From [Lactobacillus] rogosae (GTDB lineage: Bacteria; Bacillota; Clostridia; Lachnospirales; Lachnospiraceae), in contig FONU01000026.1 of assembly GCA_900112995.1 (NCBI GenBank), positions 1 to 42,751 on the forward strand: a stretch of DNA of 42,751 bases, given 5' to 3'. A model generated the notes under the pieces. The model ran no database searches, was not told the origin of the DNA, and saw only the letters and a program-made list of their open reading frames with translations. Below are positions 5,201-23,629 of the stretch, piece by piece; the first letter of the stretch is position 1; every line of letters begins with the position of its first letter. The position numbers were made by a program, and so were the translations under genes.

Positions 5201-6330
5201 ACATCCACTGTATAATGCACTGTATCTCTAACTACTTTTTCATCTACACCAATGCTGTTACTTTTTTTGCAAATTTGCTGAAACCAAATATCTATCAAAT
5301 GACTAGTTGTCGTACAATCACCATATGTTGCCTCTTCATCTAGATGTTGCCATATATAGAGATTACTTGGCACTTGTAACAAACGCCTTGTTTTTAACGT
5401 TAAGTCCTCATATTTTTTCCCTACAACCCTTTTCACAACATTTTCATCAAAATCTTTTATTACTATTTTTTTCCATTCTACTCGATGAGTATCATCACCT
5501 TCTCTTTCAAACAAAGATTTAATATTGTTGTCATTGCGCAAATCATACTCTCTGCACACAAACACTATCACAATTTTCTTTGCTCTCTCATCGTTCAGAT
5601 ACCTAACTTGCCTAATCATTTCCATACAAACTGCCAATGCTTGGCTTGAATTGGCTTGTGTCCATCTCAATGCATCTAATTGATCCAAAACTAGCACTGC
5701 AGTTTTATCTTTAGAAATAGCATTAAGTGCATAAACTATTGAACCTGAAAAACCCAACTCTTGTCCCCAAATTTCGCTATTACCATGAGGAATTCTTCTA
5801 TCTAGTTTTATCGCAATGTATGGAATGTCCTCTCCCTCACAATAATTCAAAATAGCTTCTGTACATCCACTCTTTCCATATCCTGCATTTCCAGAAATAA
5901 CAAAAGATTGTTCATCATTTATTGCCTCAATACATTCTCCAAATTCATTTCTGTCAATTAAGCCTTCCTTCAATGGTTTAAAACTGCCTCTGTACTCCCT
6001 ATTGATTAGTTCAACCTGTGGAATAATACGTTTATCTCCATCCAACATACGCATACGTATGCCCTGTTTTGTAAAATATTCTCTTAACTCTAACGCGGTT
6101 ATTTCTTTCGCATAGATATCGGAATCAATAACCAATGCGACAAATGCATTGTATACACTCTCTTTATCTGTGGCAAAATAATAACTTATTTCCTGTGATA
6201 TGCTTTCTTGTAATGTATATTCTGACATTTGTTTAAAACTAGTACGTCGCAAAAAGTCGATACTCTTCGCTACACCTGCAGATTCAGAAACCTCTATCCC
6301 CATTCCTTTGCAAAAGTCTTTGTATGAATT
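2203..6330 (-). pseudogene. STAND NTPase with helical repeats: 3' part of an interrupted Avs-like defence gene
   Basis: This segment encodes the NTPase and sensor part of a large STAND ATPase. Counting from the internal ATG at 6303 (1366 codons), a P-loop GNAGYGKS lies at 138-145 and a Walker B LVLDQLD at 204-210, followed by a winged-helix-like region. The last roughly 900 residues are helical, repeat-like and without catalytic motifs, as in STAND sensors. No good start exists: AAAGGA abuts the ATG at 6303 with no spacing, and the frame stays open upstream for nine codons to a Gln codon at 6331-6333 where the integrated element begins. That codon is in frame with the nuclease fragment ending at 23096. 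Rejoined, the protein has about 1553 residues: nuclease, STAND, repeats. Known relatives (Avs proteins) sense phage proteins and cut DNA; that role here is inferred. As it stands the gene is split and probably inactive. Confidence 0.82.
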
Positions 6331-6333
6331 CTG
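6331..6333. other. Left attachment core of the integrated element (CTG)
   Basis: CTG here and at 23096-23098 is the only sequence common to both junctions in matching frame. Left flank TATGAATT-CTG joined to right flank CAATTTTAT gives the inferred empty site GAATTCTGCAATTTT. Serine recombinases cross over at a 2-bp core, so CT or TG would be the true core. The position is inferred from gene continuity, not from an observed empty site. Confidence 0.7.
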
Positions 6334-6388
6334 AATTTCCTTACCCCGTCTCCCTTAATTAAAGATATTGTTGGGTAAAAAAGAAAGG

Positions 6389-8011
6389 TCAGTCGATTTT
6401 GCCGATGAAGCGGTAGTAGATTTCTACTTCCTGCTCACGGCTTCCGTCCTCGCCCTTGACAGCTTCGTGGACGGTTATTTTTTCAATTAGAGTGTTCAGA
6501 AGTTCGGCGGTCAGCTCCACAGGGTTGACATACTGTTTCATCAGGGCAATCCACTTTTCAGCATCCGCTGCGGTCTGTACGGCGGCTTCCATCGTTTCGT
6601 GAAGCTGTCTTATTTTTGTTTCAAGCTCCTTTTGCTCGTTCTGGTACTTCTCGGACAGCATATTGAAGTTATACTCGGTTATGCGTCCGGCAGACCAGTC
6701 CTCATACATTTTAGCAAACAGCCCGTCAACCTCGGCTTTACGCTTCTCTGCCTTTTTCAGCTCCGCAGCCTGCTTTTTCTTCGCAGAGTTTCTTTCCCTG
6801 TCGCTGGCATTGAGCAGGCGTTTCAGCAGCTTGTCCTCGTCTTTCTGTGCCAGCATAGACCAGTATTGCAGTCTTGCAAGCACATAGGCATACAGTACAT
6901 CATAGCGGATATAGTGCATGGAACACTGGCGTAATCCCTGCCCGTTCTTGCTGCAATGGTAGTACCCGTATGGGTTCTTATTCTGCTTGTTTTCCCCATA
7001 GGCTAAAGACCATCCGCAGTCTGCACATTTTATCAATCCTGCGAAAATCTGTGTCGTACCGTTTCTGCGTTTCCTGCGTCTGCTTGCAATCAGCTCCTGA
7101 ACTTTTTGGAACACTTCTTCAGAAATGATGGCTTCGTGGGTATTTTCCACACGATACCATTCTTCCTGCGGCTTCCGCACCTTTTTCTTGTTCTTGAATG
7201 AAATGTTGCTCTGCTTGTTGTGAATGCTGTGACCGATGTAGGTTTCCTCTTTCAAAATGCTCTTGACCTGTGCTATCGTCCACGCATAGGCTTTTTCTGC
7301 GGGCGCACCGGCGTAGATATTGGCGAAAGTCCCGTATCTTTCATAGTTCAGCCAGCCGGGGGTAGGTACTTTTTCCTCCACCAGAATCCGTGTAATGCTG
7401 GCGGCTCCACGCCCGTGTACAGCAAGGTCAAAAATCTTCTCTACAATCCAGCGTGTTTCCGGGTCGATCAGAAGATGACCTTTTTTGTCCGGGTCTTTTA
7501 CATAGCCCAGCGGTGCATAGGCTCCATAGTGTGCGCCATTGGCAAATCTTGTGTGCATGGCAGCCTTGACCTTTTTGCTGGTCTGTCGGGCGTGCATTTC
7601 ATTCAGGATGTTTAAGAACGGTGCAAGCTCGCTTTCTCCGTTGATGGTGTCCACATTGTCATTGATGGCAATGTAGCGTACTCCCTTGCTGGGGAAATAG
7701 ATTTCCGTGTACTGACCGGTCAGGATATAGTTTCTTCCCAGACGGGATAAGTCCTTTGTGACAACGCAGTTGATTTTCCCGTCTTCGATGTCATCAATCA
7801 TCCTTTGGAAACTTGGACGCTCGAAATTTGTCCCACTCCATCCGTCGTCAATGTACTCGTCTACAACGGTCAGCCCATGCTCTGCGGCATACTGTCTAAG
7901 CATCATGCGCTGGGTCTGGATACTGCCGCTTTCCCCCTGTAATTCATCGTCACGGCTCAATCTCAAATATAGTGCAGTGTTATAAATCGTTGTATTGTAT
8001 GGTTGTTTCAC
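6389..8011 (-). CDS. Large serine recombinase (TnpX-like integrase)
   Basis: This 540-aa enzyme would cut and rejoin the element ends at a short core. The N-terminal resolvase domain begins ALYLRLSRDDEL with the nucleophilic Ser, then has SIQTQRMML, and VTKDLSRLGRNYI in the catalytic core. The recombinase domain follows (GAYAPLGYVKDPD). A zinc ribbon comes next (CADCGWS... then HCS...QCS), and a coiled coil at about 420-500 controls synapsis. The start is GTG at 8011, with AAGGAGG 10 bases upstream; the frame extends further up without a ribosome site. The gene is the first of the element and reads outward toward the left attachment site about 55 bp away, the usual layout. Direction control is probably by the excisionase at 13.0 kb. 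Confidence 0.93.
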   Translation of the reverse strand: MKQPYNTTIYNTALYLRLSRDDELQGESGSIQTQRMMLRQYAAEHGLTVVDEYIDDGWSGTNFERPSFQRMIDDIEDGKINCVVTKDLSRLGRNYILTGQYTEIYFPSKGVRYIAINDNVDTINGESELAPFLNILNEMHARQTSKKVKAAMHTRFANGAHYGAYAPLGYVKDPDKKGHLLIDPETRWIVEKIFDLAVHGRGAASITRILVEEKVPTPGWLNYERYGTFANIYAGAPAEKAYAWTIAQVKSILKEETYIGHSIHNKQSNISFKNKKKVRKPQEEWYRVENTHEAIISEEVFQKVQELIASRRRKRRNGTTQIFAGLIKCADCGWSLAYGENKQNKNPYGYYHCSKNGQGLRQCSMHYIRYDVLYAYVLARLQYWSMLAQKDEDKLLKRLLNASDRERNSAKKKQAAELKKAEKRKAEVDGLFAKMYEDWSAGRITEYNFNMLSEKYQNEQKELETKIRQLHETMEAAVQTAADAEKWIALMKQYVNPVELTAELLNTLIEKITVHEAVKGEDGSREQEVEIYYRFIGKID

Positions 8012-8118
8012 GGTTAAAAATCCTCCTTCTAAAAGAAACAACCCACGCTTATACAATACTCGCTGGTACAAGTATATCATAAGCGTGGGCTGATTGACAG
8101 TCGTTATTCCGTATTTTT

Positions 8119-8304
8119 TCAGGAAGCGGCGGCAGCGTGCTGGATCACATCTTCCAGCAGGCTGTCAAGCGGCTTCCCATCCTGTGCGAAATGCTCCGAT
8201 ACCTTGATACGGACTTTCCCCATGACAAAATACTGGGTGCCGTCTTTTTCGGTAAGCAGGGTGCCGCTGTTTTTGTTATTGCTCTCGTTTTTGCTTTTTG
8301 CCAT
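8119..8304 (-). CDS. tnpW: TnpW-like transposon protein
   Basis: This 61-aa protein resembles TnpW of Tn4451-type elements: a charged N-terminus, then TQYFVMGKVRIKVSEHF, then a short helical tail (PLDSLLEDVIQHAA). Its function is not established in the family. GGAGG lies 9 bases before the ATG. It sits directly upstream of the recombinase in the same direction and may belong to the excision or integration machinery. Confidence 0.75.
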   Translation of the reverse strand: MAKSKNESNNKNSGTLLTEKDGTQYFVMGKVRIKVSEHFAQDGKPLDSLLEDVIQHAAAAS

Positions 8305-8380
8305 AGGCAGTTACCTCCATAAATGAAATATGCCCGACAAGGGAATGTCAGACAGGTGTACAGCCGCAGACTGTCTCCGT

Positions 8381-8565
8381 GTCAACCAAACCGTGTCAAC
8401 CGGCAGAAAAGACTTTGAAAACAATCCATAGGCGCTCTATTATTACTTTTTACTTTTTCTTTGATTTCTTGGTTGACATGGTTGACAAAGGAGAGAAATG
8501 CCCCAAATATCAGGCTTTTCCCCGTCAACCGGCTGTCAACCAAAGCGTCAACCAAACTGTCAACC
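8381..8565. repeat. GTCAACC iteron-like cluster
   Basis: GTCAACC occurs at 8381, 8395, 8524, 8535, 8547 and 8559, with the complement GGTTGAC at 8471 and 8480. A ninth copy (8649) lies inside the vapE coding end. The four at 8524-8565 are spaced 11, 12 and 12 bp, one per helical turn. The cluster fills the gap between vapE and tnpW and flanks an AT-rich stretch (about 8440-8470). It looks like a replication origin or a multi-site operator. Confidence 0.6.
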
Positions 8566-8574
8566 GGTGGCTTT

Positions 8575-9972
8575 TCAGAATGGAAGTTCCATTTGCCGGG
8601 CTTCTTCTTCCGTGATTTCCTGAAAACCGTCCCCCTCCGGCGGAGCTTGGTTGACACGCTCCCAGCCTTTTTGAGAACCGTATTTCTTATACCGCTTCGG
8701 GCTTTTGTAGGCTACCCAGCCCTGTATGATGCCGCCCGCAATGCCGGTATTCATAATCTCGCAGATTGCCCGTGTCTCCCAGTCTGCCGGGGAATTTAAG
8801 TTCCCCAGCGCTTCCTCATAAAGCTGCTTGGAACATACCCTGTCGCCGGTGTAGTCCTCCAAATAGGCGTAGATCATGCCGGCCTGTGTGTCTTCCTGCA
8901 TAAAGTCCTGCTGGTGGGCGTTCAGGTATCGGTTCATTTCCATGCTGAATGACAGCTTATACTTCCCACTGCGATAAACCGTCATGGCTTCCGCCCACAT
9001 CTGTTCGATATACGCCCTCGCCGCCGCTTCATCGTCCAGTATGTGAACCTCCGCCCGTTCCGGGTACACCGTCACGGGGAGAAAGCGCCGGTTGCCGGTG
9101 CGGTCACGGGGCAAAAAGTCCTGCCGGTTGGTCGTCCCTCCAAATACACATTGCCGCAGCCGGTCTGCCGGATGTGTCTCATACGGCACTTTGTAGGTTT
9201 CTTTCTGGCGGCTTAAGAATGACTTGATTTCCTCAATACTCTTGGCGTTGGCTGTGGCAATCATCTCCGACATCTCGATAATCCAATGCCCTTGCAGCTT
9301 GCGGTACACATTTTCATCGTCCAGCTTTTTCAAATCGTCTGAAAACCATTCGTCCCTGCCTGCCAGCAGCCGGAAAAAGGTAGATTTCCCGGCTCCCTGA
9401 CCACCAACCAGACAGAGCATGACCTCAAACTTGCTCCCCGGTCTGAATACCCGCCGGATGGCTCCCATCAGGAACAGTTTCAAGGCTTCATAGGTGTATT
9501 CGTCCGTATCGGCTCCCAGAAAGTGATGCAGGGCGTAACGGATGCGCTCTGTGCCGTCCCATTGCAGGCTGTTCAGGTAATCCCTGACTGGATGGTAGCG
9601 GTTTTCATTGGCAACAATCTTGATGGCGCTCTGCACCTTTTTCTCGCTGGTAAGCCCGTAATTTTCTTCCAGATACAAAAGCAGGTAGTTCATGTCCATG
9701 TCGGTCAGCGTGGTACTGGTGCGCTCCCAGCCCAGCGGCTTCACAATGTCAATCTGCTCCGTCAAAAGGTTCAGGCGCAGCGCCCCGCGAAACAGAGGGT
9801 CACGCTGGAACACCGTCAGGCAGTTTCGGATGCTGTTCTTCACGCCGCCTTTCTGCGTCCCCTCTAATGTTTCCCGGATTTCTGCCGGTGTCTGCGCCGG
9901 TTCCATTGTGTCCATCGTCCTTTTGACCGCTTCCTGCGTTTCCGGCGGCAAGCTCTGAAATTCGCTGTTCAA
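8575..9972 (-). CDS. VapE-family virulence-associated E protein (SF3-like helicase)
   Basis: This is a 465-aa P-loop ATPase of the VapE family, found with primases in mobile elements and thought to act as a replicative helicase. The P-loop GGQGAGKST is at 190-198. Later come HWIIEMSEM (Walker B-like) and FGGTTNRQDFLPRDRTGNRRF, a family signature with conserved Arg fingers. The start is TTG at 9972, supported by AAAGGAGG 9-10 bases upstream. The first 58 codons overlap the primase gene in another frame. With the primase and the iteron cluster it probably forms an autonomous replication module for the excised circle. Confidence 0.88.
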   Translation of the reverse strand: MNSEFQSLPPETQEAVKRTMDTMEPAQTPAEIRETLEGTQKGGVKNSIRNCLTVFQRDPLFRGALRLNLLTEQIDIVKPLGWERTSTTLTDMDMNYLLLYLEENYGLTSEKKVQSAIKIVANENRYHPVRDYLNSLQWDGTERIRYALHHFLGADTDEYTYEALKLFLMGAIRRVFRPGSKFEVMLCLVGGQGAGKSTFFRLLAGRDEWFSDDLKKLDDENVYRKLQGHWIIEMSEMIATANAKSIEEIKSFLSRQKETYKVPYETHPADRLRQCVFGGTTNRQDFLPRDRTGNRRFLPVTVYPERAEVHILDDEAAARAYIEQMWAEAMTVYRSGKYKLSFSMEMNRYLNAHQQDFMQEDTQAGMIYAYLEDYTGDRVCSKQLYEEALGNLNSPADWETRAICEIMNTGIAGGIIQGWVAYKSPKRYKKYGSQKGWERVNQAPPEGDGFQEITEEEARQMELPF

Positions 9973-10540
9973 GCCGCAACACCTCCTTTCCCTGTGCGGC
10001 GATCAATGCCGCTTTTTCTTCTATTTCTCCGTATAACAAAATATCCAAAAGGTATTCTGTGTAGCTTATCCTCTGCAACGCTTCCACAAAAAGAGGATGC
10101 CAGATGGCATCCTGCGGCTGTGGGGCGTGTGCTGTTTTCCAATGCTCCAGCAGGCGCAGATAATCGCATAGCACCCGGAAACAATACCGTTCCGTTTCCT
10201 GAAATCTCTGCTCCGCTGATTTTTGTCGGGGCTGTGACCTGTTGTGACGCTTCCTATCTGGCGGCGCATTGCCGGATTTCTCATAGGAAACGCCGAAGTC
10301 CTCCGCAAGCCTGACCGCAGCTTCCCGTTTCCCCAATCCATGCAGCAAAGCGGCAAAGTCGATCACATCCCCGGAAGCCCCGCAGCCGAAGCAGTAAAAG
10401 CGGCTGTCCACTTTCATGCTGGGCGTGCGGTCATTGTGGAATGGACAGCAGACCATGCCGTTTCTCCCCACCCGGATTCCATAGAATGAAGCAGCCTGCC
10501 GGGTGGTAACAGACTGTTTCACCGCTTCAAATACATTCAA
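9800..10540 (-). CDS. CHC2 zinc-finger primase-like protein
   Basis: The 246-aa product carries the DnaG-type zinc-binding domain at residues about 30-60: CCPFHNDRTPS then FYCFGCGASGDVIDF, giving the Cys/His...Cys-x2-Cys set. The family uses this to recognise template DNA. No TOPRIM domain is visible, so this is not a full DnaG. The rest is helical with a coiled-coil stretch near 175-195 and a polar tail. That tail is encoded in the region shared with vapE (173 bp), which probably couples the two products. Confidence 0.85.
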   Translation of the reverse strand: MNVFEAVKQSVTTRQAASFYGIRVGRNGMVCCPFHNDRTPSMKVDSRFYCFGCGASGDVIDFAALLHGLGKREAAVRLAEDFGVSYEKSGNAPPDRKRHNRSQPRQKSAEQRFQETERYCFRVLCDYLRLLEHWKTAHAPQPQDAIWHPLFVEALQRISYTEYLLDILLYGEIEEKAALIAAQGKEVLRLEQRISELAAGNAGSGQKDDGHNGTGADTGRNPGNIRGDAERRREEQHPKLPDGVPA

Positions 10541-10587
10541 ATGCTCCCTCCATAAAAATACTGGTAGCGGTAAAGCTGCCGGTTATA

Positions 10588-12060
10588 TCATAGCTCCATC
10601 TCATGTTTCTTTCTCTGTACTGCCTGTGGCTGCTCCCTCCGGCGCAGTGCGGTATCTACGGCGTTCTGCACCTGCCGTAGCCGTATGACTTCCTCCCGGA
10701 GTGGCTTGTGCTGCGGAGACAGTTCGGCATACTCTGTTTTTAACTGTGCGTATTCCTGTTTCCATGCTTTCAGGGCAATGGGTTTTCCGTCCAGTTTTTC
10801 TTTCAAAATACGGCGGGCGGCATAAAACAGCCGTAACTCCGCATCGTGGGATGTTTCAAATTTCTCCCTCTGTTTCTTAAACTTGATATTGTTCAATTCC
10901 GTATGAACAGGTTTTAGCCGCTGGTAATTCTCGCCCTCCCGTATCAATTCCTGCAATTCCTTTATCCGGGCAGATTTCTTTTTCATGGAGTCGCTTAACG
11001 CTTCAAATTCTTCGTTGACAGAGGAAAGACGCTCCTGCAAATCCTCTAATGTGAGCAGCTTGTTTTCCGTCAGATAATTGACGGCTTCGGCAAACTGCTT
11101 TAAGTTTCCGGTTCTGGCTTTATTGCTCCATGCCCCTGCGTTGCGCTGGTTGTAATAAGCGATCAACAGGTCGGCAAGGCTCGGTGTCTGCGGTTTGGAA
11201 AGTTCTTCTTTTACCTCTGCCATCCAGACAAACAGGGCTTTGATCTTCTTCCTCACATCCTGCATGAGCCGGTTGGTGGCTTTAATCCAGCGGTTCAGTT
11301 CCCCTTTCTCGGTGCGGATGCCCTTTGCTTCCATCTGCCGGACATTAGCTCCCTCGTGGACAGTAGGTATCAGGTCAAGCCCCTGCCGCACATAGGAACG
11401 GTGGTCGATACGCACATCCAGCCCTTTTTCCTCAAATTTTGTATTAACGGCAGCCGCCCACTGCTCCCGCCAGTGTTCCAGCGTTTCCGGCTCATGCCAG
11501 TCTGTTGTATGGACAGCGTTAAACATATAATCGCCGTTTTTATCCCGGATTCGGTTTCCATCTTCATCAAGAAGATATTCCCGACGCTGTTTTTGTCCCC
11601 ATGTGCCATCCGGGTTCAAAGGGCGCATGGTTGTCATCACATGAAAATGCGGGTTAGGGATGCCGCCGTCCTCTTTCTCCGGGCTGTGAAAAGCAAGGTC
11701 GGCAATCATGCCTTTTGTCACAAACTGCTCCTGTACGAACTTCCTCGCCAGCTCCATGTTTTCTTCCAGCGTCAATTCATTCTGCATGGCAATATCAAAG
11801 GAATAGGCAAGCTGTGCTTTTGGATGTTTCTCGCAGTTCTCCACAGCATTCCAGAGGGTCGCCCGGTCAAGATATATTTCCGGCGCATGGGGCGGCAGCA
11901 TGATTTCCGAAGCGATCACGCCGCCCTTTTTGGTGTAGTCGCTGACTTCTCCATAGTAGCTGCTGTAAAGACGCTCCCCGGCTCGATAGGCTGCGCTGGC
12001 AATGGCGCTCTGACCGGCGCTGCGCTTGATCTGTGCGATTGAAAAATGATAAAGTGCTAT
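10588..12060 (-). CDS. MobA/MobL (MobQ) relaxase with ATA in place of the start ATG
   Basis: The enzyme nicks oriT and pilots the strand. In frame from 12060 the product reads IALYHFSIAQIKRSAGQSAI, the conserved MobA/MobL N-terminus usually written MALYHF. Then come ASAAYRAGE, PNPHFHVMTTMRP (the metal-binding His motif) and a long coiled-coil C-terminus. At the expected start the codon is ATA, with a TGA two codons upstream. The first standard start is GTG at 11919, which would remove 47 residues of the catalytic domain. Either ATA is used at low efficiency or the relaxase is crippled. The gene begins directly after the DUF3847 stop. Confidence 0.82.
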   Translation of the reverse strand: MALYHFSIAQIKRSAGQSAIASAAYRAGERLYSSYYGEVSDYTKKGGVIASEIMLPPHAPEIYLDRATLWNAVENCEKHPKAQLAYSFDIAMQNELTLEENMELARKFVQEQFVTKGMIADLAFHSPEKEDGGIPNPHFHVMTTMRPLNPDGTWGQKQRREYLLDEDGNRIRDKNGDYMFNAVHTTDWHEPETLEHWREQWAAAVNTKFEEKGLDVRIDHRSYVRQGLDLIPTVHEGANVRQMEAKGIRTEKGELNRWIKATNRLMQDVRKKIKALFVWMAEVKEELSKPQTPSLADLLIAYYNQRNAGAWSNKARTGNLKQFAEAVNYLTENKLLTLEDLQERLSSVNEEFEALSDSMKKKSARIKELQELIREGENYQRLKPVHTELNNIKFKKQREKFETSHDAELRLFYAARRILKEKLDGKPIALKAWKQEYAQLKTEYAELSPQHKPLREEVIRLRQVQNAVDTALRRREQPQAVQRKKHEMEL

Positions 12061-12062
12061 CC

Positions 12063-12380
12063 TTAGTCACCGCCTTTCTCCTGCCCGGAAATACGGGCGT
12101 GGTTCTCTGTGGCAGACCGGATGAAATGCTCCGCCTGCGGCAGATTCAAAATGCTTTCCATGAGGGAATAAAATTCCGCTTCGGATAGCTCCTTTGTCTG
12201 TGGTGCAATGCTCTCAATAGCTGCCCCACGGGTAATCAGCCGGTGCGTCCTCTGTTTCCGGGAACCGCTTTCCAGATACGCCTGCCGGTTTTTCAAACGC
12301 TGCATTTTCCGTTTTTCCTGTTCCAGCAGGACAGTGGTTTTTTCATATTCCTGCTTCAACTGTTCCAAAGATTTTTCCAT
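12063..12380 (-). CDS. DUF3847 protein
   Basis: This 105-aa protein begins MEKSLEQLKQEYEK; a coiled coil spans about 1-35, and the helical remainder carries THRLITRGAAIESI and NLPQAEHFIR. This pattern is typical of DUF3847, which regularly sits just upstream of MobQ relaxase genes and may be a relaxosome accessory. The ATG at 12380 has AAAGGATG a short distance upstream; the longer frame to 12419 has none. Confidence 0.7.
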   Translation of the reverse strand: MEKSLEQLKQEYEKTTVLLEQEKRKMQRLKNRQAYLESGSRKQRTHRLITRGAAIESIAPQTKELSEAEFYSLMESILNLPQAEHFIRSATENHARISGQEKGGD

Positions 12381-12419
12381 GTTCTCACATCCTTTGCTGA
12401 TAAGATAAAGAAAGACCAT

Positions 12420-12623
12420 CCGCAGACAGTCCGTGTGTCAGTGCTTCTATAAAACCCGATGAAAAGGGAAAACCGCAGAGCGGATTTCTCTTTGCGGCGG
12501 GTACACAGGGGATAGCCGCTTTAGCGGCGCAAGGGGGTGTAGCCACCTTGTCGGAGCGAAGCGAACGCAGACCTCGGATTGCTGATTTTATCAGCGGCAG
12601 AGGTAAGCTCCGCAGGACGCACG
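12420..12623. other. Hairpin-rich leader before oriT, no gene
   Basis: Non-coding stretch between DUF3847 and oriT. It contains short hairpins such as GCCGCTTTAGCGGC (about 12514-12527) and GCTGATTTTATCAGC (12581-12595), probably part of the extended transfer origin or folded mRNA leader. Confidence 0.45.
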
Positions 12624-12660: not shown

Positions 12661-12666
12661 TAGTTC

Positions 12667-12870: not shown

Positions 12871-13017
12871 AACCGGCTCCTTTCTCCGTTTCTATCTGAT
12901 GTACGCAGATAGGCTGTTTTGATGTAGCGTCTCGGTATCATTTTTAAGTTTTTTTCCCTCTGTATGCCCCTTTGGAAAGTGCGGCAGTATTGCAAGTCAG
13001 GGAATGATACCTCACGC

Positions 13018-14809: not shown

Positions 14810-17188
14810 TTATTCCATCGCCCGCATTTGTTCAATCAGAGATTGTTTTTTCTGTCTGCGGATTGTCCATACAGACAAGATCAGTTCCATTCCGAATAAT
14901 ACCAGAATGAACAATCCCATTTCCAAAACCGGGAATTTGTAAGGTACTACATTTCCACCAAAAGTAGCTATACTTATTTCTCTACTTGCAACAATAGAAA
15001 TAGGAAATCCGACAATCAGGATTGCCAATGTTGCAAAGAACGCATAACACAGACCCTCGCATATATTCATTTTGCATAACTGTTTTTGTGTCAGACCAAT
15101 GGAACGCAAAACACTGTTTTCCTGTTTTCTGGACATCTGATTAGAAAGGGTCGTATTGATGAGGTTGATAACACCAAAGAGGAACACCAACCATGAAAGA
15201 ACCTGCATACTACCAAACGCCGCAGAATTTTGTGATTTTTCAGCCGCAATCGCTGTATCTATTTCATCTAAAGCAAGGTTACTGTGTTCGGCTACAATAT
15301 TTTTCAGTTCAGCTTTTACAGTTTCAGCTTTTTTCGGATTGCTTACAATGCTCCATGAGTAATCAAAGGTAGTAATTTCCGGGTACAGTTCGTAGAATAA
15401 ATCTTTTGGAGCAAAGAAAACAGAGCCATCTGTATGAGCGCGTCCATGCCCGAAAATCACAGGCATTTTTGAAGTGGAAAACACTCCCGATATTGTAACA
15501 GGGATGGACTGCTTACCATCTATTGAAGAAAATTCAACGGTGGAACCGACGCCCATATCTTCAAAATACGCTACAATCTGGTCGTGAATTACGATACTAT
15601 GAGAATCTGTCGGCATCGTTCCCTCTGTCAATGCAGCCTCAACCATAGCATAGTTCTGGTCAGTCAGCGTATCACATATTCCTGAATTTTGGTTAGCATC
15701 TGTTTTAATGCTGGTATGGAGCGATTGTCTGGCTACGATTATATCCGTAACACCATCAACAGATAAAACTTCCTGCTTTAGTTCCTCGTTTAGCGGATTA
15801 CCTTTTACTAACATTTCTTCCGATAGATCTTGGAGATATATTTTGTAATCGCTGTCAGGAAAATATAATCTTGCAATTTGTTCTGGTGAGCGCACTAAAA
15901 CAATGGAAGATACCACCATCAGCAAAATTCCGCCGATACTCAAAGATGCTACAATACTGATTGTCTTTTTTCGGTCACGCTTAAAATTCGCAATTCCCAT
16001 TGAAACAGGATTGAGCTTGATATTCTTTTTCCGGCTGCGGATGTCCTTTTGCACTGGGGTAAAACGGACGGCTTCAATGGGGGAAATCCCTGCCGCGATT
16101 TTCACCGGCTTACGGATGGAAATAGACACCATGATCCAACCGCTTATGAGTGTCAGGGAAACCATAACGGCATAGGAAACAGCGTTAAATCCCTTGGAAA
16201 ACAGAAGAAAACCGCAGCATACGCCCAGCACTGTACCAATCAAAATTCCGATACTGCCGAGTTTGCGTCCCTCCCGCTTTACAATCCGCTTGATTTGCTT
16301 TGGCGTTGCACCAATCGTCCGAAGCTGTCCGTAGCTCCTGATTTTGTCATTGATGGAGATACGGAAGATACTCTGAATCACAATATAGCCGCCGATCAGA
16401 ACAATAACAATCACACCAAAAATCGGTAAAAAATCAAAGGATTTAGAAGCATAAGCAAAATACTTGTTGTTCATGCTGGGATTAGGAAGCTGATATTCCT
16501 CTGCAATCTCTCTGCAATAAGAGGTTATCAGTTCCTCGCCCAACTGATCGCTGTTTTTGAAATGGACATAAGCGCGATACCCAGCCGGATCAAACCCTTT
16601 CCATTCTGTCAGGGCAGCTTTGGAAAGAATGATAGCGCAGGTATTCGCTTCTTTTTCATTTACGCTGTCCATAATGCCGGTAACGACATAATCACCATGA
16701 AAACTCTCGGTATCTAAGGTCACAGTGTCCCCGATCTTGGCATTGTTTCCATAGGTGGAGAGAAAGTATTCGCTTACGACAACTTCATTTGCTTTTTGGG
16801 GTAGATTCCCCTCCAATAGCTTCATTTGGTCGCGCCCAATCTCCATCATTTCTGCGTCATTATATACATAAGAGGCATGATAGCCCTGTTCCGAAAGTTC
16901 CTCGCCGAGCATATAGTAGCCGCCTACGCGCTCAAACTCCGGCAGTCCTTTCAGGGTTTCAATGTCGTTTTCCTCTACGCCCAGCCAGACCGCCTCATAA
17001 GTATCGACAACCTGATTGCGCTGCATTTGTGTCAGGGAGGTAGACACAATTCCCGTAAAGCAGATCAGAAACGCCGCCAGCGCAACGGCAATCACCACCA
17101 TCAGATTCCGGCGCTTCTCGCTTTGCAAACTTTTCTTTGCCAGCTTCTTTGTAATGGCGCTGGTATCATTTTCAAAAGGCCATGTCAT
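14810..17188 (-). CDS. FtsX-type ABC transporter permease, first paralogue
   Basis: This 792-aa membrane protein has two FtsX/MacB-type modules. A first membrane helix lies near 28-50, then an outside domain (about 55-250), a membrane block near 255-365 (IFGVIVIVLIGGYIVIQSIF), a cytosolic linker (NIKLNPVSMGIANFKRDRKK), a second outside domain (about 440-680) and three closing helices. The family exports or detoxifies peptides such as bacitracin and lantibiotics together with a cognate sensor. The N-terminus MTWPFENDTSAI is identical to that of the second permease (18261-20648), so the two arose by duplication. It lies 14 bp after the ATPase gene in one operon. The substrate cannot be read from sequence. 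Confidence 0.88.
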   Translation of the reverse strand: MTWPFENDTSAITKKLAKKSLQSEKRRNLMVVIAVALAAFLICFTGIVSTSLTQMQRNQVVDTYEAVWLGVEENDIETLKGLPEFERVGGYYMLGEELSEQGYHASYVYNDAEMMEIGRDQMKLLEGNLPQKANEVVVSEYFLSTYGNNAKIGDTVTLDTESFHGDYVVTGIMDSVNEKEANTCAIILSKAALTEWKGFDPAGYRAYVHFKNSDQLGEELITSYCREIAEEYQLPNPSMNNKYFAYASKSFDFLPIFGVIVIVLIGGYIVIQSIFRISINDKIRSYGQLRTIGATPKQIKRIVKREGRKLGSIGILIGTVLGVCCGFLLFSKGFNAVSYAVMVSLTLISGWIMVSISIRKPVKIAAGISPIEAVRFTPVQKDIRSRKKNIKLNPVSMGIANFKRDRKKTISIVASLSIGGILLMVVSSIVLVRSPEQIARLYFPDSDYKIYLQDLSEEMLVKGNPLNEELKQEVLSVDGVTDIIVARQSLHTSIKTDANQNSGICDTLTDQNYAMVEAALTEGTMPTDSHSIVIHDQIVAYFEDMGVGSTVEFSSIDGKQSIPVTISGVFSTSKMPVIFGHGRAHTDGSVFFAPKDLFYELYPEITTFDYSWSIVSNPKKAETVKAELKNIVAEHSNLALDEIDTAIAAEKSQNSAAFGSMQVLSWLVFLFGVINLINTTLSNQMSRKQENSVLRSIGLTQKQLCKMNICEGLCYAFFATLAILIVGFPISIVASREISIATFGGNVVPYKFPVLEMGLFILVLFGMELILSVWTIRRQKKQSLIEQMRAME

Positions 17189-17202
17189 AGCCTGCCACCT
17201 CC

Positions 17203-17868
17203 TTACTCCACGATCTTGCCGTCCTCAATGCGGACAATCCGATCTGCAAGACGGGCTATGTCGTCATTGTGGGTAATCATCACAACGGTTTGCCGGAACT
17301 CCGCACTGGTGCGCTTGATAAGCCCCAGCACCTCGGCGCTGGTCTTGCTGTCAAGGTTGCCGGTCGGCTCGTCGGCCAGTACAATAGCCGGTTTGGTAAT
17401 CAGGGCGCGGGCAATCGCCACACGCTGCTGCTGGCCGCCGGAAAGATTGTTGGGCATATTTTTCAGTTTATCTTCCAGCCCCAGCAGGTGAACGATCTCG
17501 TCCAAAAACTTCTGATCCACCGTGTCCCCGTCCAGCTCCACCGGCAGGACAATGTTCTCATACACATTCAGGATGGGAACAAGGTTATAGTTCTGGAAGA
17601 TAAAGCCGATGTTGCGGCGGCGGAAGATGGTGAGCTGTTCGTCGTTCATTTTCGACAGCTCTTTGTCCCGGACAATCACATTGCCGGAAGTAGGGGTGTC
17701 CAGCCCGCCCATCATGTGAAGCAGGGTGGACTTGCCGCTGCCGGAGGTTCCCACAACGGCCACAAACTCGCCGTCCTCCACAGAGAAGTTCACGCCGTCA
17801 AGGGCGCGGGTGATATTCGGCTCTGTACCGTAATACTTTTTCAGGTCGATCGTCTGTAAAATGCTCAT
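17203..17868 (-). CDS. ABC transporter ATP-binding protein
   Basis: This 221-aa MacB/LolD-type ATPase powers the FtsX permeases. Visible motifs are Walker A VVGTSGSGKST, the Q-loop in GFIFQNYNLVPILNVYENI, signature LSGGQQQR, Walker B AIVLADEPTGNLD and the H-loop VMITHNDD. The ATG at 17868 is chosen over an in-frame TTG at 17877 because AAAGGATTG precedes it. It lies between the small membrane protein gene and the first permease gene. The second permease has no ATPase of its own and presumably shares this one. Confidence 0.95.
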   Translation of the reverse strand: MSILQTIDLKKYYGTEPNITRALDGVNFSVEDGEFVAVVGTSGSGKSTLLHMMGGLDTPTSGNVIVRDKELSKMNDEQLTIFRRRNIGFIFQNYNLVPILNVYENIVLPVELDGDTVDQKFLDEIVHLLGLEDKLKNMPNNLSGGQQQRVAIARALITKPAIVLADEPTGNLDSKTSAEVLGLIKRTSAEFRQTVVMITHNDDIARLADRIVRIEDGKIVE

Positions 17869-17873
17869 AAAAT

Positions 17874-18134
17874 TCAATCCTTTCTTTGTTTGTTGTAAAT
17901 GTTGAACGCTGCTGCGCCGGTGGCCGCCAACTGTACCAGAATCAGCACAGCGAACAGGCCGAAGCTCTCATAGTAGAACAGTTCATCCCAAAACAGGAGA
18001 ACATCACAGAGAGCAGTCAAGGCAACCGTCCAGCGGATGTGCCGGGCCAGCCATTGCCGGAACACCAGCACAAGGACAGCAGGCGGGACGATCAGCAGCA
18101 CCAGATTCAAAATCAATGTCGGGGTCAGTTCCAT
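17874..18134 (-). CDS. Small membrane protein of the exporter operon
   Basis: The 86-aa product has three predicted membrane helices (LILNLVLLIVPPAVLVLVF, then WTVALTALCDVLLF, then FGLFAVLILVQLAATGAAAF) and no motif that I recognise. GAGGAGG precedes the ATG by about 7 bases. It is the first gene after the duplicated promoter at 18156-18260 and is followed at once by the ATPase gene. It may be an accessory subunit or an immunity-type protein. Confidence 0.7.
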   Translation of the reverse strand: MELTPTLILNLVLLIVPPAVLVLVFRQWLARHIRWTVALTALCDVLLFWDELFYYESFGLFAVLILVQLAATGAAAFNIYNKQRKD

Positions 18135-18155
18135 TGCGTCGCCTCCTCACTTTTG

Positions 18156-18260
18156 TTGATAAGGGTATTGTAAAACCCAAATGTCCGCGAAATGTTACAG
18201 CGGCCAAAAAATTTCATTGAAAATCGGGGTGAAATGTTACAACGCTCGGACATTTCAAAA
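18156..18260 (-). promoter_or_regulatory. Duplicated regulator-controlled promoter, copy A
   Basis: A 105-bp block almost identical to 20668-20772 (one difference seen, at 18188). Read leftward it holds CGGACAT-n5-TGTAACATTTC, a spacer, a second TGTAACATTTC-n-CGGACAT, then after 8 bases TACAAT (18172-18167) as -10. The two TGTAACATTTC boxes (18231 and 18189) are 42 bp apart, four helical turns. No good -35 is present, as expected for an activator-dependent promoter. Confidence 0.7.
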
Positions 18261-20648
18261 TCAGTCTGCCATTTTGATCCGTTCCACCAACGAATTTCTG
18301 CATTGAATTTTTAGACAGATAGCAGAAATTATAATAGGTGTTATTATTAAGCAGACACCGTAAATCAGTAATGGAATAAAAGGAAAAGTATATTGAAAAT
18401 AAGTTAATCCATTCGCAGACAATATCCGTACTAACAAATAACCCATCAAGGTTCCTGCCACAACCGTAATAATCAAGCATGGAATAATCAGTAAGACACT
18501 TTCATGCAGCAGCATTTTCTTTATCTGTTTTTTTGTCATACCGATAGATTCCAATATTCCAAATTCTTTTCTCCTTGTACTGATACGACTAATCAAGGTG
18601 TTTGTCAGATTAAAAATGCTAAACATAATGACAAAGGCAGATACCCCATAAACTTGTACGCTGGTATTATGAATCGTATTTGCCGAAGATGCTTTTACCT
18701 CTTGTAAGGTTTCCATTACCAAATCAGGGTGTCGGGACAGTATATTATTTAATTTGCTTTCTACTGATTTACCCACTTTTTCATATTCAGGTACGGACAA
18801 AGTTAAGGAAGCTGTTAAATCCATATCGCCCCACAACTTTTCTATGGTTTCTTTGGGGAGATAAAAGCCCTCATTCATACTTTTTTCGGAAGTACCGGCA
18901 ATCAAAATATCTATGCTGTGTTCAGCCCCATCAAACCATCGTAATGTCACTTTTTCTCCTATTGACGGGCAAGCATGATAGACTTCTTTCTGTACGCTTG
19001 TTCCTAATATAACCATAGCGTCTTGTTTCACCAATGTTTCGTATGTCCAATCAACAGGAAGCGTTTTCAAAATTTCCTCCTGATTATCAGGCGTAATCGG
19101 AATAATGGGAATTTCTAATTGTTCATCGTGATACTCAATAATGGCTGCGGTTCTCTCCGTAGCATAAATCTCTTTAACTTCCGGGATTTGTTGCAATTCT
19201 TCCATGAGTTCTTGTGAAAAAGGCGTATTAACTTGATACTCCGAAATACCATACGGTTTCGGGTTGACTAATGTATTGTGGTTAATCGTAATATAATATT
19301 CTCCATCTTCCAAATTCCCCATTCTTGCAAAGGAATCTGGATTCCATGATGATATAAAAGTGGCTCCAACCATAAATAAAATCCCGCCGATTGCAAGCGA
19401 GGCAATCGTCAGATTGTGTTTTTTTCGATTCTGCTTTTCGCTCAATACGGCTAAAGAATACGGTGAGAGCCGAATATGATTTTTCCTATTCTGCACTCTA
19501 CTTTCTTTTAGTTCTGGATCGTTTCCAACATATTTTGTTGCTTCAATAGGGGAAATATTTGAAGCTATTTGTGCGGGCTTGTATACGGAAATTTGTACGA
19601 TGATAATGCCTAATATTATTGCTAAAATACTTGTGGCTATGGCATTGATAATCGTTATTCCATTCGGCTCTAACAAATATGCAAATATGATACCTACTGT
19701 AATACCGGCAGGTATTCCGAACAGGCAGAAACGATACCCTTCTTTACGAATCATCCGCTTAATTTGTTTTTCTGTCATGCCAATAGTTTTGAGCTGTCCA
19801 ATCTGCGATACTTGATTTGATACCGAAAGGTAGAACACACTGTATATGACAATTCCGCTTGAAAATGCAATAAAAAGAGTAGCTAAAAGAACACCTCCCA
19901 TTCCTGATCCACTAATAAGTGAGGAACAGAATTTGCTATTAAAATAAAGTTGGTTCCTGCTTATGTCTTGGGATAAAGCCAGACGATATACTGTATTCTC
20001 AAAATCAATAAGTCCCATTTCCGTGGCACCATTTACACGAATCAAGGCACTATATGGAATATCCGATAATAACACACCCTGTTCTGCATACGCTGGGGAG
20101 ACATAAAAGTAAAATGTTCCTGTTTCCACATTATCAGTAAAACCAGTAATGATGAAATCCTCTGTTTTACTCCCCGCCGTTGGTAAAGTGATGGTATCTC
20201 CTATATTTAGCTGATACCCCAGCTCTAATTGAACATTTTTATCAATTACAATTTCATTGTACTGTTCTGGACAGGTTCCACTGACTAATTCATAGGATTT
20301 TATAATTCCAAAACCAGTCGGCATATAAACCGCTTCAAATTTGATCCCATCCATCAGAAAACTATCACTATGCTTATAGGGTACAATATCTTCAAGATCA
20401 GGTTCTTTTTTCAGAACTTCTATCTGTTCTGCTGTAAGCCCCCCGATGGTAGCTTGCTGCATTTGATTCAAAATCTTTTGTTCACTAATTTTGCTGCCTT
20501 GTTGGAATAAGGAGATTCCCACAATCAAACTAATTGCCAGCGCAATGGTCAAAACATTAAAAAAGCAAAAAATACGATTTGAAGATACATTGCGTTTTGC
20601 TAATTTCTTTACAATGGCGCTGGTGTCATTCTCAAAAGGCCATGTCAT
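18261..20648 (-). CDS. FtsX-type ABC transporter permease, second paralogue
   Basis: This 795-aa permease is built like the 14810-17188 protein: a first helix near 25-45, outside domain, membrane block near 240-360, a linker with HIRLSPYSLAVLSEKQNRKK, a second outside domain (about 430-660), and final helices including FVIMFSIFNLTNTLI. The ATG at 20648 has GGAGG 10 bases upstream; the frame also runs back through the promoter, which is not coding. It shares MTWPFENDTSAI with its paralogue but is strongly diverged and AT-rich. It is transcribed from promoter copy B, and its stop abuts promoter copy A. Confidence 0.88.
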   Translation of the reverse strand: MTWPFENDTSAIVKKLAKRNVSSNRIFCFFNVLTIALAISLIVGISLFQQGSKISEQKILNQMQQATIGGLTAEQIEVLKKEPDLEDIVPYKHSDSFLMDGIKFEAVYMPTGFGIIKSYELVSGTCPEQYNEIVIDKNVQLELGYQLNIGDTITLPTAGSKTEDFIITGFTDNVETGTFYFYVSPAYAEQGVLLSDIPYSALIRVNGATEMGLIDFENTVYRLALSQDISRNQLYFNSKFCSSLISGSGMGGVLLATLFIAFSSGIVIYSVFYLSVSNQVSQIGQLKTIGMTEKQIKRMIRKEGYRFCLFGIPAGITVGIIFAYLLEPNGITIINAIATSILAIILGIIIVQISVYKPAQIASNISPIEATKYVGNDPELKESRVQNRKNHIRLSPYSLAVLSEKQNRKKHNLTIASLAIGGILFMVGATFISSWNPDSFARMGNLEDGEYYITINHNTLVNPKPYGISEYQVNTPFSQELMEELQQIPEVKEIYATERTAAIIEYHDEQLEIPIIPITPDNQEEILKTLPVDWTYETLVKQDAMVILGTSVQKEVYHACPSIGEKVTLRWFDGAEHSIDILIAGTSEKSMNEGFYLPKETIEKLWGDMDLTASLTLSVPEYEKVGKSVESKLNNILSRHPDLVMETLQEVKASSANTIHNTSVQVYGVSAFVIMFSIFNLTNTLISRISTRRKEFGILESIGMTKKQIKKMLLHESVLLIIPCLIITVVAGTLMGYLLVRILSANGLTYFQYTFPFIPLLIYGVCLIITPIIISAICLKIQCRNSLVERIKMAD

Positions 20649-20667
20649 AGTTGTATCACCTCCATAT

Positions 20668-20772
20668 TTGATAAGGGTATTGTAAAACCCAAATGTCCGT
20701 GAAATGTTACAGCGGCCAAAAAATTTCATTGAAAATCGGGGTGAAATGTTACAACGCTCGGACATTTCAAAA
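20668..20772 (-). promoter_or_regulatory. Duplicated regulator-controlled promoter, copy B
   Basis: Same 105-bp block as 18156-18260, differing at 20700. It lies directly before the second permease gene (start 20648) and carries the same paired TGTAACATTTC/CGGACAT boxes and TACAAT -10. Confidence 0.7.
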
Positions 20773-20810
20773 AAATTTACGGCGGGCAGCCGGAAATGGC
20801 CGTCCGCCGA
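20769..20810 (-). terminator. Terminator after the small membrane protein gene
   Basis: On the minus strand a GC-rich stem (CGGCGGacGGCC with CCGGctgCCCGCCG, loop ATTT) is followed by a run of T after TAAA. It ends transcripts from the two-component genes just before the second permease promoter. Confidence 0.75.
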
Positions 20811-20828
20811 AACATACTACACGATCTT

Positions 20829-21245
20829 TTAGATAGATTGATTGTGAAATAATTTCAATCCAATCACCACATCTATCATAAGTTCCACAATGAGAATTAT
20901 ACTAATGGCAAAATTAAAATTACATAGGTTATATAATCCGATATAGATTTCACAAGTAAGAAATACAACTTGCAGACACAAATTTAAGTATGTCACTAAA
21001 TGCTCGTTAGTTCTATTCCACAATCTAAACAGGAACATTGTAAAAATAGGTTTTCCAGCAAAAGCAAAGAGTACTGACAATATCGGCACCAAAAATATAT
21101 AGTAAGAATCTACTGCATTGCTGGGGGTTGTACCTACCCATTGAATTGCTATATTATCAGGAACAACGAAAAATAAAACAATAGATAAAATAACATTGAT
21201 TATTAAGATGATTGTTGTTGCTTTGCAAAAATTGATTTTTTTCAT
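20829..21245 (-). CDS. DUF1648-like small membrane protein
   Basis: The 138-aa protein has four predicted membrane helices. The segment FFVVPDNIAIQWVGTTPSNA resembles the conserved DUF1648 start (PDxIAIHW). Such proteins accompany SdpI-type immunity and peptide-resistance loci, but the match is partial. It follows the kinase gene by 27 bp in the same direction and is AT-rich compared with the kinase, so it may have been acquired separately. Confidence 0.6.
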   Translation of the reverse strand: MKKINFCKATTIILIINVILSIVLFFVVPDNIAIQWVGTTPSNAVDSYYIFLVPILSVLFAFAGKPIFTMFLFRLWNRTNEHLVTYLNLCLQVVFLTCEIYIGLYNLCNFNFAISIILIVELMIDVVIGLKLFHNQSI

Positions 21246-21272
21246 GGTGTTTTCTCCTGTTATAAGTGTGCT

Positions 21273-22304
21273 TTATTTAGTCGGCAGCATAATGGAAAAT
21301 TCCGAACCCTTGCCCGGCTCCGAAACCACTTTGATATAGCCGCCCTGTCGCGTTACGATCTCGCGGGCCAGATACAGGCCAATGCCCACGCCCTGCTGTT
21401 CGTGTACTTCTTCCTCACGATAGAAGCGCCGGAAGATAGCGGCCTGATTGCTTTCAGAAATTCCTTTGCCAGTGTCGGTCACTTTGATCTCCACATACAT
21501 TTCCCACAGCACCACCGACACAGCGATTTTCCCGCCTGCCGGGGTGTACTTCACCGCATTGTCCAGCAGGTTAAAGAGGGCTTCGGATGTCCACTTGCTG
21601 TCATGGGAAACGGTCAAATCCTCCGGGCAGTCCACAGACACGGCGATTTCCTTTTTCTCCGCTGCATACACGATCCCACTCATGGCCTGCGCCACAGTAT
21701 CAAAGAGGCGGCCCGATTTCTTATCCAACTGGATCACGCCTGTTTCCAGCCGGGAGGTTTTCACAAGGGCCTGAAAGAGAAAGTCCAGTTTATCCGTCTG
21801 GCTGCGGATTCCCCGGATAAAGTCGGTGCGCTCCGCCTCGGTCATAGGCTTTTCCAGCAGGGTGTCCGTCGCCATTTTCAGATTGCTTACCGGCGTTTTC
21901 ACTTGATGGGAAATATCCGATACAAGGGTCTGTAACTCCTGCCGTTCCTCGTCCACCCGGCGGCGGTTCTCCTGCATGATCTGGTAAAGCCTTGCCAGCC
22001 GGTGTCCGATTCTGGCAAGCTGGGTTTCGCTGTCCTCTGGCCGCTGGGGTGCTTCATTTCCGGCGATCATGTGGTCTAAGGTCTGGCACAGGTCAGTGGT
22101 AAACTGCGACAGTCGCTTTCCAAACGCCTGCGTCAGTACAAAAATCCCTACAATGGCGCACAGCAGCAGCGCCCCGCCTGTCAGCAGCACCGCAATCTGT
22201 TTTGTCACAAGAAAAAGAGCTATGGTGATCCCGGACATGGAGAGGACAAGCTCCATTGCCACCCGGCCAAACAGCCGCTTTACCGAGAGGTTTTGAAACT
22301 TCAT
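21273..22304 (-). CDS. Sensor histidine kinase
   Basis: This 343-aa membrane kinase would phosphorylate the adjacent regulator. Two helices at about 16-58 enclose almost no outside loop, so the sensor probably reads the membrane or the exporter itself, as in BceS-type systems. The H-box SDISHQVKTP has its His at 133. The N-box is NLLDNAVKYTP, then DTGKGIS and GVGIGLYLARE as G-boxes. The ATG at 22304 overlaps the regulator stop by 4 bases (ATGA) and has GGAGG 9 bases upstream, showing translational coupling. Confidence 0.92.
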   Translation of the reverse strand: MKFQNLSVKRLFGRVAMELVLSMSGITIALFLVTKQIAVLLTGGALLLCAIVGIFVLTQAFGKRLSQFTTDLCQTLDHMIAGNEAPQRPEDSETQLARIGHRLARLYQIMQENRRRVDEERQELQTLVSDISHQVKTPVSNLKMATDTLLEKPMTEAERTDFIRGIRSQTDKLDFLFQALVKTSRLETGVIQLDKKSGRLFDTVAQAMSGIVYAAEKKEIAVSVDCPEDLTVSHDSKWTSEALFNLLDNAVKYTPAGGKIAVSVVLWEMYVEIKVTDTGKGISESNQAAIFRRFYREEEVHEQQGVGIGLYLAREIVTRQGGYIKVVSEPGKGSEFSIMLPTK

Positions 22305-22993
22305 TTTACCTCGCCTCCCGTCCATTGATACCCCATGCCGTAAACGGTCTTGATGTAGGGTGCGCCGCCGTCGGCTTCAATCTTGCTGCGAATACGGCTG
22401 ATGGAGGTTGTCAGGGTGTGTTCGTCCACAAACCGCTCGTCTATATCCCACAGCTTTTCCAAAAGCTGCCCACGGGTCAGCACTTGCCGGGGATTTTTAC
22501 GAAACAGGTTCAGCATTTTGTACTCCATCGGGGATAGAGTCAGGGGCTTGCCGTTTAAGGAAGCCGTCTGCTCCGAGAAGTCCAGAAACAACCGCCCGTC
22601 GTCGTAAATGTCCTTGGCCGGTTTGTGGTGTTCCAGCATGGCGAACATGGCTTTGATTTTTCGCTGCAAGGCCCCGATCACAAAGGGCTTTGTGATGTAG
22701 TCCACCGCGCCCACCTCATAGCCCCGTATCTGGTCGCTCTCCTGATCGTTGGCGGTCAGGAATATTACGATGGTGTCCGGGTGCTGGGGCTTTATCAGCT
22801 TGCACAGTTCAAAACCGTTCCCGTCCGGCAGGTTGATGTCCAGCAGCACTAAATCAAATTCCCGCTGGCGGATGGCTTCGGCTGCGGTTCTGGCATTTAG
22901 GGCAGAAGTCACGCCGTAGCCGTCTGCGGTCAGGTTATAGTCTAACATCTTATTCAAAAAACTGTCGTCCTCGACAATTAAAATCTGCTCCAT
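22301..22993 (-). CDS. OmpR-family response regulator
   Basis: The 230-aa product has a receiver domain with acidic EDD at 8-10, phospho-acceptor Asp in LVLLDINLP at 52 and the Lys in ITKPF. The winged-helix DNA-binding domain ends with TTSISRIRSKIE and TVYGMGYQW. The start is ATG at 22993 after GGAAGTGAG; a longer frame to 23074 overlaps the promoter. It probably activates itself and both exporter promoters through ATGTCCG/TGTTACA boxes. It is the last gene before the right end of the element. Confidence 0.93.
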   Translation of the reverse strand: MEQILIVEDDSFLNKMLDYNLTADGYGVTSALNARTAAEAIRQREFDLVLLDINLPDGNGFELCKLIKPQHPDTIVIFLTANDQESDQIRGYEVGAVDYITKPFVIGALQRKIKAMFAMLEHHKPAKDIYDDGRLFLDFSEQTASLNGKPLTLSPMEYKMLNLFRKNPRQVLTRGQLLEKLWDIDERFVDEHTLTTSISRIRSKIEADGGAPYIKTVYGMGYQWTGGEVK

Positions 22994-23021
22994 ATTCTCA
23001 CTTCCTTTGCTTTTTGCAGAT

Positions 23022-23054
23022 AGTATAACAGGCAAATGTCCGAGAATTGTTACA
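23022..23054 (-). promoter_or_regulatory. Promoter of the two-component genes with regulator boxes
   Basis: Read leftward: TGTAACAATTC (23054-23044), one base, CGGACAT (23042-23036), 8 bases, TATACT (23027-23022). Box order and the 8-base distance to the -10 are the same as at the two exporter promoters, which points to autoregulation. Confidence 0.65.
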
Positions 23055-23086
23055 AGGACAAATATATTTATCATTTTACAGCTTTT

Positions 23087-23629
23087 TTATGTGTACTGCA
23101 ATTTTATAAAAGAAAGGACAGCAGTATCATCAAATTGCTGTCCTTGCGGTTTATTATAGCTGGTAGTGTATAAGCGTGGGTTCATCATATTTGGTGTGGT
23201 ATCTTTAACTATGGGAAACTCCCCTGATTTTATTTGATACTCATAAAAATCATTCGGATTGTTAGTTGAATTTATTGCACGATTATGCAAATCAACGATA
23301 TGAGTGCATCCTACTGCACTTACCAACGCCACGTTTCTATCATCGCCTCGTTCTAATTGCTTCTTCCAGTTTTTCAATATATTACGTGATTTCAAATCAG
23401 CAATCGACCAATATTCTTTACTTGCATTTCGAACTTTACATTGTTGATGTTCTTTCCTCCCTTCAAAATCAGTAATCAGAATATCAGTTCCGACCTCATC
23501 ATCTCCAAGTGCTTCTATAACAATACTATAATTAACTTCTCTAAGAACTTTAAGCATCTCATAGATAATACATCTTATTTCATATCTATTACCCATTTTA
23601 TCCGCTCTTCCACCATTTTCTAACGGCAT
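23087..23629 (-). pseudogene. PD-(D/E)xK nuclease domain: 5' part of the interrupted Avs-like gene
   Basis: This 180-residue fragment begins MPLENGGRADKMGNRYE. A Glu at 17, GTDILI with Asp at 49 and HQQCK with Gln63-x-Lys65 form the E-D-QxK set of Cap4/DUF4297 and Mrr-like nucleases. Such domains are fused to STAND NTPases in Avs systems. The ATG at 23629 has GGGAGG 8-10 bases upstream, better than the ATG at 23647 inside that site. The native part ends at the Gln codon 23096-23098. Two element-derived codons and TAA follow. The frame continues exactly in the fragment 2203-6330. Alone it lacks the switch domain. Whether it is toxic or inert when made separately is unknown. Confidence 0.82.
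23096..23098. other. Right attachment core of the integrated element (CTG)
   Basis: Matches the CTG at 6331-6333. On the minus strand it is the Gln codon of AAA-TTG-CAG in the nuclease fragment, after which the element adds only Tyr-Thr-stop. Confidence 0.7.

Follow-up and report, generated by a model that had tools for sequence, protein, structure and literature searches.

Skin in sigK and the prophage in comK are regulated gene-splitting elements, each dedicated to a single gene. Recombinases carrying the DUF4368 domain have been described as multi-targeting (PMC10083194), and a 2026 study reported random integration by such enzymes, one of which, MTI_1737, uses GG cores (PMC13137831). The Tn4451/Tn4453-type elements of clostridia are mobilizable, carry a serine recombinase, and insert with low specificity (PMC5704250), and the gut element IME_Rho_tet, which has 21-bp inverted ends, mostly enters MAFF2 genes (45% of its sites; PMC12904643). 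Here we describe a mobile element in contig FONU01000026.1 of [Lactobacillus] rogosae (assembly GCA_900112995.1), the whole 42,751-nt stretch of which is referred to as the window. The element splits a probable nuclease-STAND gene, and we consider it likely, at a probability of roughly 0.88, that a multi-targeting serine recombinase inserted it at a secondary site, so that the N-terminal, nuclease-like region is now separated from the NTPase region. In this reading, a large serine recombinase with DUF4368 joined the element's attP to a secondary attachment site in the gene, at a CC/GG core between the two regions, and the lack of an intact usual site in the same genome may have steered the insertion. 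The product would be inactive afterward, while the element, whose recombinase looks intact, could still excise. What was found amounts to the disruption of a single gene by a mobile element of a common class: the landing spot is unusual and the mechanism ordinary.

That the two host pieces belong to one gene, as an initial annotation of the sequence had proposed, is borne out by uninterrupted homologues. Proteins matching the 3′ piece occur once per genome in 6 of 299 genomes of the family, that of the host included, and one of these genomes (G009) adds a second partial match. Two of the homologues are uninterrupted and without the element: L002 (1522 residues, 62% identity over the 3′ piece) and L003 (1560 residues counted from an early TTG, 55% identity). 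Both window pieces align to consecutive stretches of these proteins, the 5′ piece tracking them to ...YQIK-SGEF and the 3′ piece from RGKEIQNSYKDF... onward. The remaining homologues are incomplete, being split over two frames in G009, reduced to the last 107 residues in G031, and ended by a contig edge in G225.

The ends of the element were placed by comparison with copies in other genomes. The left ends of other copies read CC and then CGT[TC]TCCCTTA[AG]TTAAAGATATTG, except at loci L050 and L055, where the end differs; the right ends read TATCTTTAACT[AT]TGGGAAACT and then CC. These conserved ends put the junctions at 6344/6345 and 23222/23223, so the boundaries first proposed, 6334 and 23098, do not hold. 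The excised unit, including one copy of the core, measures 16,876 bp. A copy in genome G282 (L039), whose target is a helix-turn-helix (HTH) gene, matches the window element without gaps at 99.73% identity over 16,878 bp. Excision at the corrected ends rejoins 4142 and 409 nt into 4551 nt, or 1517 codons with the stop (1516 residues), in frame. The resulting junction ...QIKSGGKEIQNSYKDF... is equal in length to ...QIKNSSKEFCNFYHNF... in L002, and the corrected junction peptide, NDFYEYQIKSGGKEIQNSYKDFCKG, likewise equals in length the NDFYNIQIKNSSKEFCNFYHNFCKE-type sequence of that homologue.

The initial annotation had instead removed 6334-23098 and joined FIKLQ to NSYKDFCKG through a glutamine codon, to give about 1553 codons, a reconstruction whose appeal is that each edge happens to be open as far as a CAG codon, with the frames compatible. 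We give it practically no credence. The homologues fail to align across this glutamine junction, an outcome that the initial annotation had itself named as grounds for rejection; about 41 codons of the apparent 5′ open reading frame (ORF; 23087-23647), FIKLQ among them, intrude into the element, and this 41-residue tail is missing from both homologues and encoded by what is a conserved element end in other copies. The product would also exceed the homologues by some 35 residues when these are measured from the equivalent methionine (1517 and 1518 residues). That an assembly error placed the element in this contig is a further alternative that we regard as extremely improbable: the genome is a 2.8-Mb draft in 49 contigs and other genomes contain nearly identical elements, but both junctions carry the expected core and element ends beside complementary parts of one gene, which would be unexpected of a misjoin.

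Where the element usually lands was assessed by scanning its left-end pattern, in which the core was fixed, which gave at least 119 stretches in genome contigs and 2 in viral contigs. The matches listed, together with a plasmid copy (L008) and the window, formed a set of 123 loci, from which three short flanks and one duplicate were dropped to leave 119 distinct left flanks. Among the matches listed, 112 of the 119 flanks lie in XRE-type HTH genes, reading G, two to four residues, P, and then D, E, S, T, or N in the HTH frame, and 102 show the narrower P-D/E form; the same reading was found in a mean of 4.1 and a maximum of 10 flanks when the arms were shuffled (200 rounds) and at 93 of 2578 other GG positions in the flanks. 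In XRE-type HTH genes the target motif is formed by the W-E-x-G...P-D codons. Seven of the flanks among the matches listed (L062, L069, L076, L100, L122, L177, and the window) are not in HTH genes; the window is the only recognized nuclease-STAND site of the seven, the other six genes carrying no identification. A second test used both ends. Nine of 19 loci (L008 and L039-L056) were left out for a missing or divergent end, and each of the ten retained copies, including one from a more distant branch (L056, approximately 82% identity at the left end), gave an uninterrupted XRE-type HTH protein over the predicted empty site, at K/R/N-W-E-x-G...P-D/E. The flank set and L039-L056 come partly from the same genomes and are not independent. 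The targets of this recombinase group vary visibly, by eye among the two-ended copies and through the seven non-HTH flanks.

A recombinase landing at codons that specify a conserved protein motif would find sites in many different bacteria, and this fits the presence of the element across many bacterial groups: the element records among the matches listed come from Lachnospiraceae, Oscillospiraceae, Erysipelotrichia, Dialister, and others, many of them Bacillota and a few not. The same element end was also seen in a low-coverage contig labeled Dechloromonas (L168), possibly through contamination of that assembly. Nine other genomes of the family have full-length matches to the recombinase itself at 97-100% identity, and 113 of 397 have matches at E 1e-100 or better. 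No description of an XRE-HTH landing site was found in the accessible portions of the literature on such recombinases, a search that did not extend to the supplementary data of the survey. We regard this preference as the most interesting by-product of the analysis and the part worth following.

The window site departs from this preference. Of the 52 positions in the consensus of the ten HTH attB sites it matches 19, where the ten themselves match 32-42, and it scores -13.7 bits in a model built from those sites, against 41-59 for the ten, whose own scores are flattered by having built it. Within the host DNA of the window, 283 of 51,540 positions score at least as high as the window site, as do 51 of the 1685 with GG at the core. 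The site is not HTH-like, yet it ranks among the top few percent of GG positions. A canonical site pattern, TGGGARNNNGG-N10-CCNGA, fits all ten HTH sites and has no match in the host's own genome; it is present in 45 of the 61 genomes searched (own genome included, hence 45 of 60 relatives) and in 16 of 21 relatives of the same genus. Among 27 HTH_3 matches in the own genome, 26 of them over the cut-off, a single one has TGGGA[AG]NNNGG, and this locus is a stub that stops directly past the motif. An intact relative of the stub gene occurs in genome G008; searches of the own genome, one of them run without a positive control, did not recover the C-terminal part of that relative. The narrower motif TGGGARASNGG shows no enrichment in the own genome, occurring 7 times as such and 8 times when reversed as a control. 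The element's usual target suggests a rule, open to testing, whereby genomes without the motif would undergo secondary insertions.

The gene that was entered is probably nuclease-STAND-like, with a predicted anti-phage role. We take it to resemble the Avs-type nuclease-STAND anti-phage proteins, with which it shares a length of about 1520 residues and, probably, the order of a nuclease-like N-terminal region followed by a STAND-like NTPase region; it differs from them in that no PADLOC model matched its protein at full length, a partial PDC-M54A match being returned, and in an nSTAND3 score of 19.3 bits in the 3′ piece (Pfam cut-off 27.2), the 25.3 bits of L002 being also below the cut-off. 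No Pfam match was obtained for the 5′ fragment, where a PD-(D/E)XK-like motif (GTDI...QCK) was assigned by eye. PDB entry 9n00 gave a weak co-linear match (E 0.006), and a PDB search with the L002 protein alone returned nothing up to E 1. An AlphaFold model of the L002 N-terminus was poor (mean pLDDT 58.9) and is not relied on; in it, the position of the junction, at about residue 140, lies in a loop between two helices.

Four points weigh against secondary-site insertion into a defense gene as we have set it out. The nSTAND3 match is weak, falling short of the Pfam threshold. The HTH attB model derives from ten sites and partly mirrors the coding constraint of HTH genes. Five of the 21 same-genus relatives likewise lack the canonical pattern, so its absence is not unusual. 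Finally, no close strain with an empty site turned up, and for this reason the pre-insertion state has to be inferred; the empty-site pattern was also absent from viral contigs, although these are a poor source of host empty sites.

Insertion into a gene that had already been released from selection, in a neighborhood undergoing decay, is an unlikely course of events, though one with a visible basis in the adjacent DNA. A neighboring type IV restriction-like gene with PLD, helicase, and DUF3427 parts (24462-27417) lies in three ORFs, with one in-frame stop and one frameshift. Against this, neither host part of the STAND gene contains a stop or a frameshift, and with the ends corrected the reading frame runs on across the empty site. 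Beside the restriction-like gene lie genes for an HNH endonuclease (27738-28877), a MazG-like protein (28883-29203), and a Schlafen-type helicase (29206-30789), followed by a thrS-like gene (31678-33435); the genes at 27738-30789, with their restriction-like neighbor, probably constitute a defense island.

The initial annotation had also raised the idea of a reversible off-switch, in which the element is kept in the anti-phage gene and exits exactly under some condition, or in a subpopulation, to restore immunity in frame. If true, an anti-phage gene would be held off at low cost. As with skin and the comK prophage, the gene is split by an element that brings its own recombinase, and its two parts would rejoin in frame. 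In-frame rejoining does hold once the ends are corrected, but it is no special sign of a switch, because any exact insertion predicts it, and all ten other two-ended copies behave alike. An intact-looking recombinase and an excisionase-like ORF have been retained, no stop interrupts the 3′ fragment, and recombinases of the Tn4451 type excise without an added factor, according to a review (PMC5704250). The element, however, is by no means confined to this gene: 112 of the 119 flanks among the matches listed are in HTH genes, and the window holds its one recognized insertion in a nuclease-STAND gene, whereas skin and the comK prophage each serve a single gene. The L002 and L003 genes are uninterrupted without it, and it carries unrelated transport genes as cargo. 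A circular-junction pattern was found in 0 of 397 family genomes and in no viral contigs, weak evidence in that assemblies seldom show rare forms. A switch is thus left unsupported, and we consider it very improbable; nor did the literature, judged by titles and the openings of abstracts, offer a fitting case of a serine-recombinase element in a defense gene or of such a switch.

The gene content of the element (Table 1) places it, probably, among integrative mobilizable elements, with its recombinase, relaxase, and accompanying gene set. The predicted large serine recombinase was confirmed, with Resolvase, Recombinase, Zn_ribbon_recom, and DUF4368 domains (the last being PF14287, 82.2 bits against a cut-off of 25), and it adjoins one end of the element. 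The predicted excisionase was recovered in part, as a small ORF that clears the cut-off for HTH_17 and falls below that of the NCBIfam excise model. The TnpW that had been named found no match in the small ORFs scanned, which are a part of those in the element. No type IV secretion (conjugation) genes were found among the element ORFs scanned, in which no search was aimed at them, and no tetracycline ribosomal-protection domain occurs among its large ORFs.

Table 1. Features of the split gene and of the mobile element in the window.
Feature	Position	Strand	Basis
Host 3′ part of split gene (NTPase and C-terminal region, STAND-like protein)	2203..6344	-	ORF 2203-6303 plus open upstream extension; L002/L003 alignment from just past junction
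Left CC core copy (GG on coding strand)	6345..6346	.	Left versus right ends of copies in other genomes
Mobile element	6347..23220	.	Ends common to other copies
Left element end, imperfect inverted repeat (I21) of right end	6347..6367	.	Repeat search; conserved in other copies
Large serine recombinase (Resolvase, Recombinase, Zn_ribbon_recom, DUF4368)	6389..8080	-	Pfam
VapE-like protein	8575..9972	-	PF05272, E 2.5e-71
CHC2 zinc-finger (primase-type) protein	9800..10540	-	PF01807
MobA/MobL relaxase	10588..11919	-	PF03389, E 1.5e-72
DUF3847 protein	12063..12419	-	PF12958
Excisionase-like HTH_17 protein	13018..13299	-	PF12728, 34.9 bits (cut-off 27); NCBIfam excise 17.2 bits, below cut-off
DUF6076 protein	13485..14585	+	PF19553, 25.0 bits
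Cargo FtsX-type ABC permease	14810..17188	-	PF02687
Cargo ABC transporter ATPase	17203..17877	-	PF00005
Cargo FtsX/MacB-type ABC permease	18261..20765	-	PF02687, PF12704
Cargo sensor histidine kinase	21273..22325	-	PF02518, PF00512
Cargo response regulator	22301..23074	-	PF00072, PF00486
False C-terminal tail (PIVKD...FIKLQYT) of 5′ fragment, reading through into element DNA	23087..23220	-	Inside conserved right end; no homologue counterpart
Right element end, imperfect inverted repeat of left end	23200..23220	.	Repeat search; ends of other copies
Right CC core copy	23221..23222	.	Same comparison of ends across genomes
Host 5′ part of split gene (N-terminal, probable PD-(D/E)XK nuclease region)	23223..23629	-	N-termini of L002, L003, L006, and L004 align

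The window element belongs to an already known kind, and as far as the accessible literature goes it is the XRE-HTH target that was not found described. With the multi-targeting DUF4368/TndX-like clade it shares the DUF4368 domain, a dinucleotide core, and insertion into different genes in different hosts; it differs in that its sites mostly follow one XRE-HTH codon motif rather than being loosely A/T-rich, a comparison that for MTI_1737 and Cp36 is by description only (PMC10083194; PMC13137831). IME_Rho_tet is likewise an integrative mobilizable element of gut Bacillota with a serine recombinase, a relaxase, ends forming conserved inverted repeats of about 21 bp, precise integration within genes, and a very wide host range, but it carries a tetracycline-resistance gene and mostly targets MAFF2, whereas the window element has ABC-transporter and two-component cargo and is of a kind that mostly targets XRE-HTH genes (PMC12904643). 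From the Tn4451/Tn4453-type elements, also serine-recombinase mobilizable elements of clostridia and of low insertion specificity (PMC5704250), it is set apart by a strong preference for HTH genes and by the failure of the small ORFs scanned to match TnpW. An article on a C. difficile island (PMC6814731) has no bearing on the target.

Within the cargo region, repeated sequences of 47-105 bp (repeats D1-D3) lie upstream of the permease and regulator genes, at 18156-18260, 20668-20772, 14708-14754, and 23021-23069, and are possibly operator sites of the cargo two-component system.

A second kind of break at the usual landing motif was seen at G000:C14:14216-14300 (L182, L212) and G282:C1:2510911-2510995 (L213). 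In both genomes a different HTH gene is affected, ending right after TGGGAA...GG, and is followed by the same 85-base sequence (approximately 405 bp, 95.6% alike), as if a second, unrelated mobile unit had entered at the same site.

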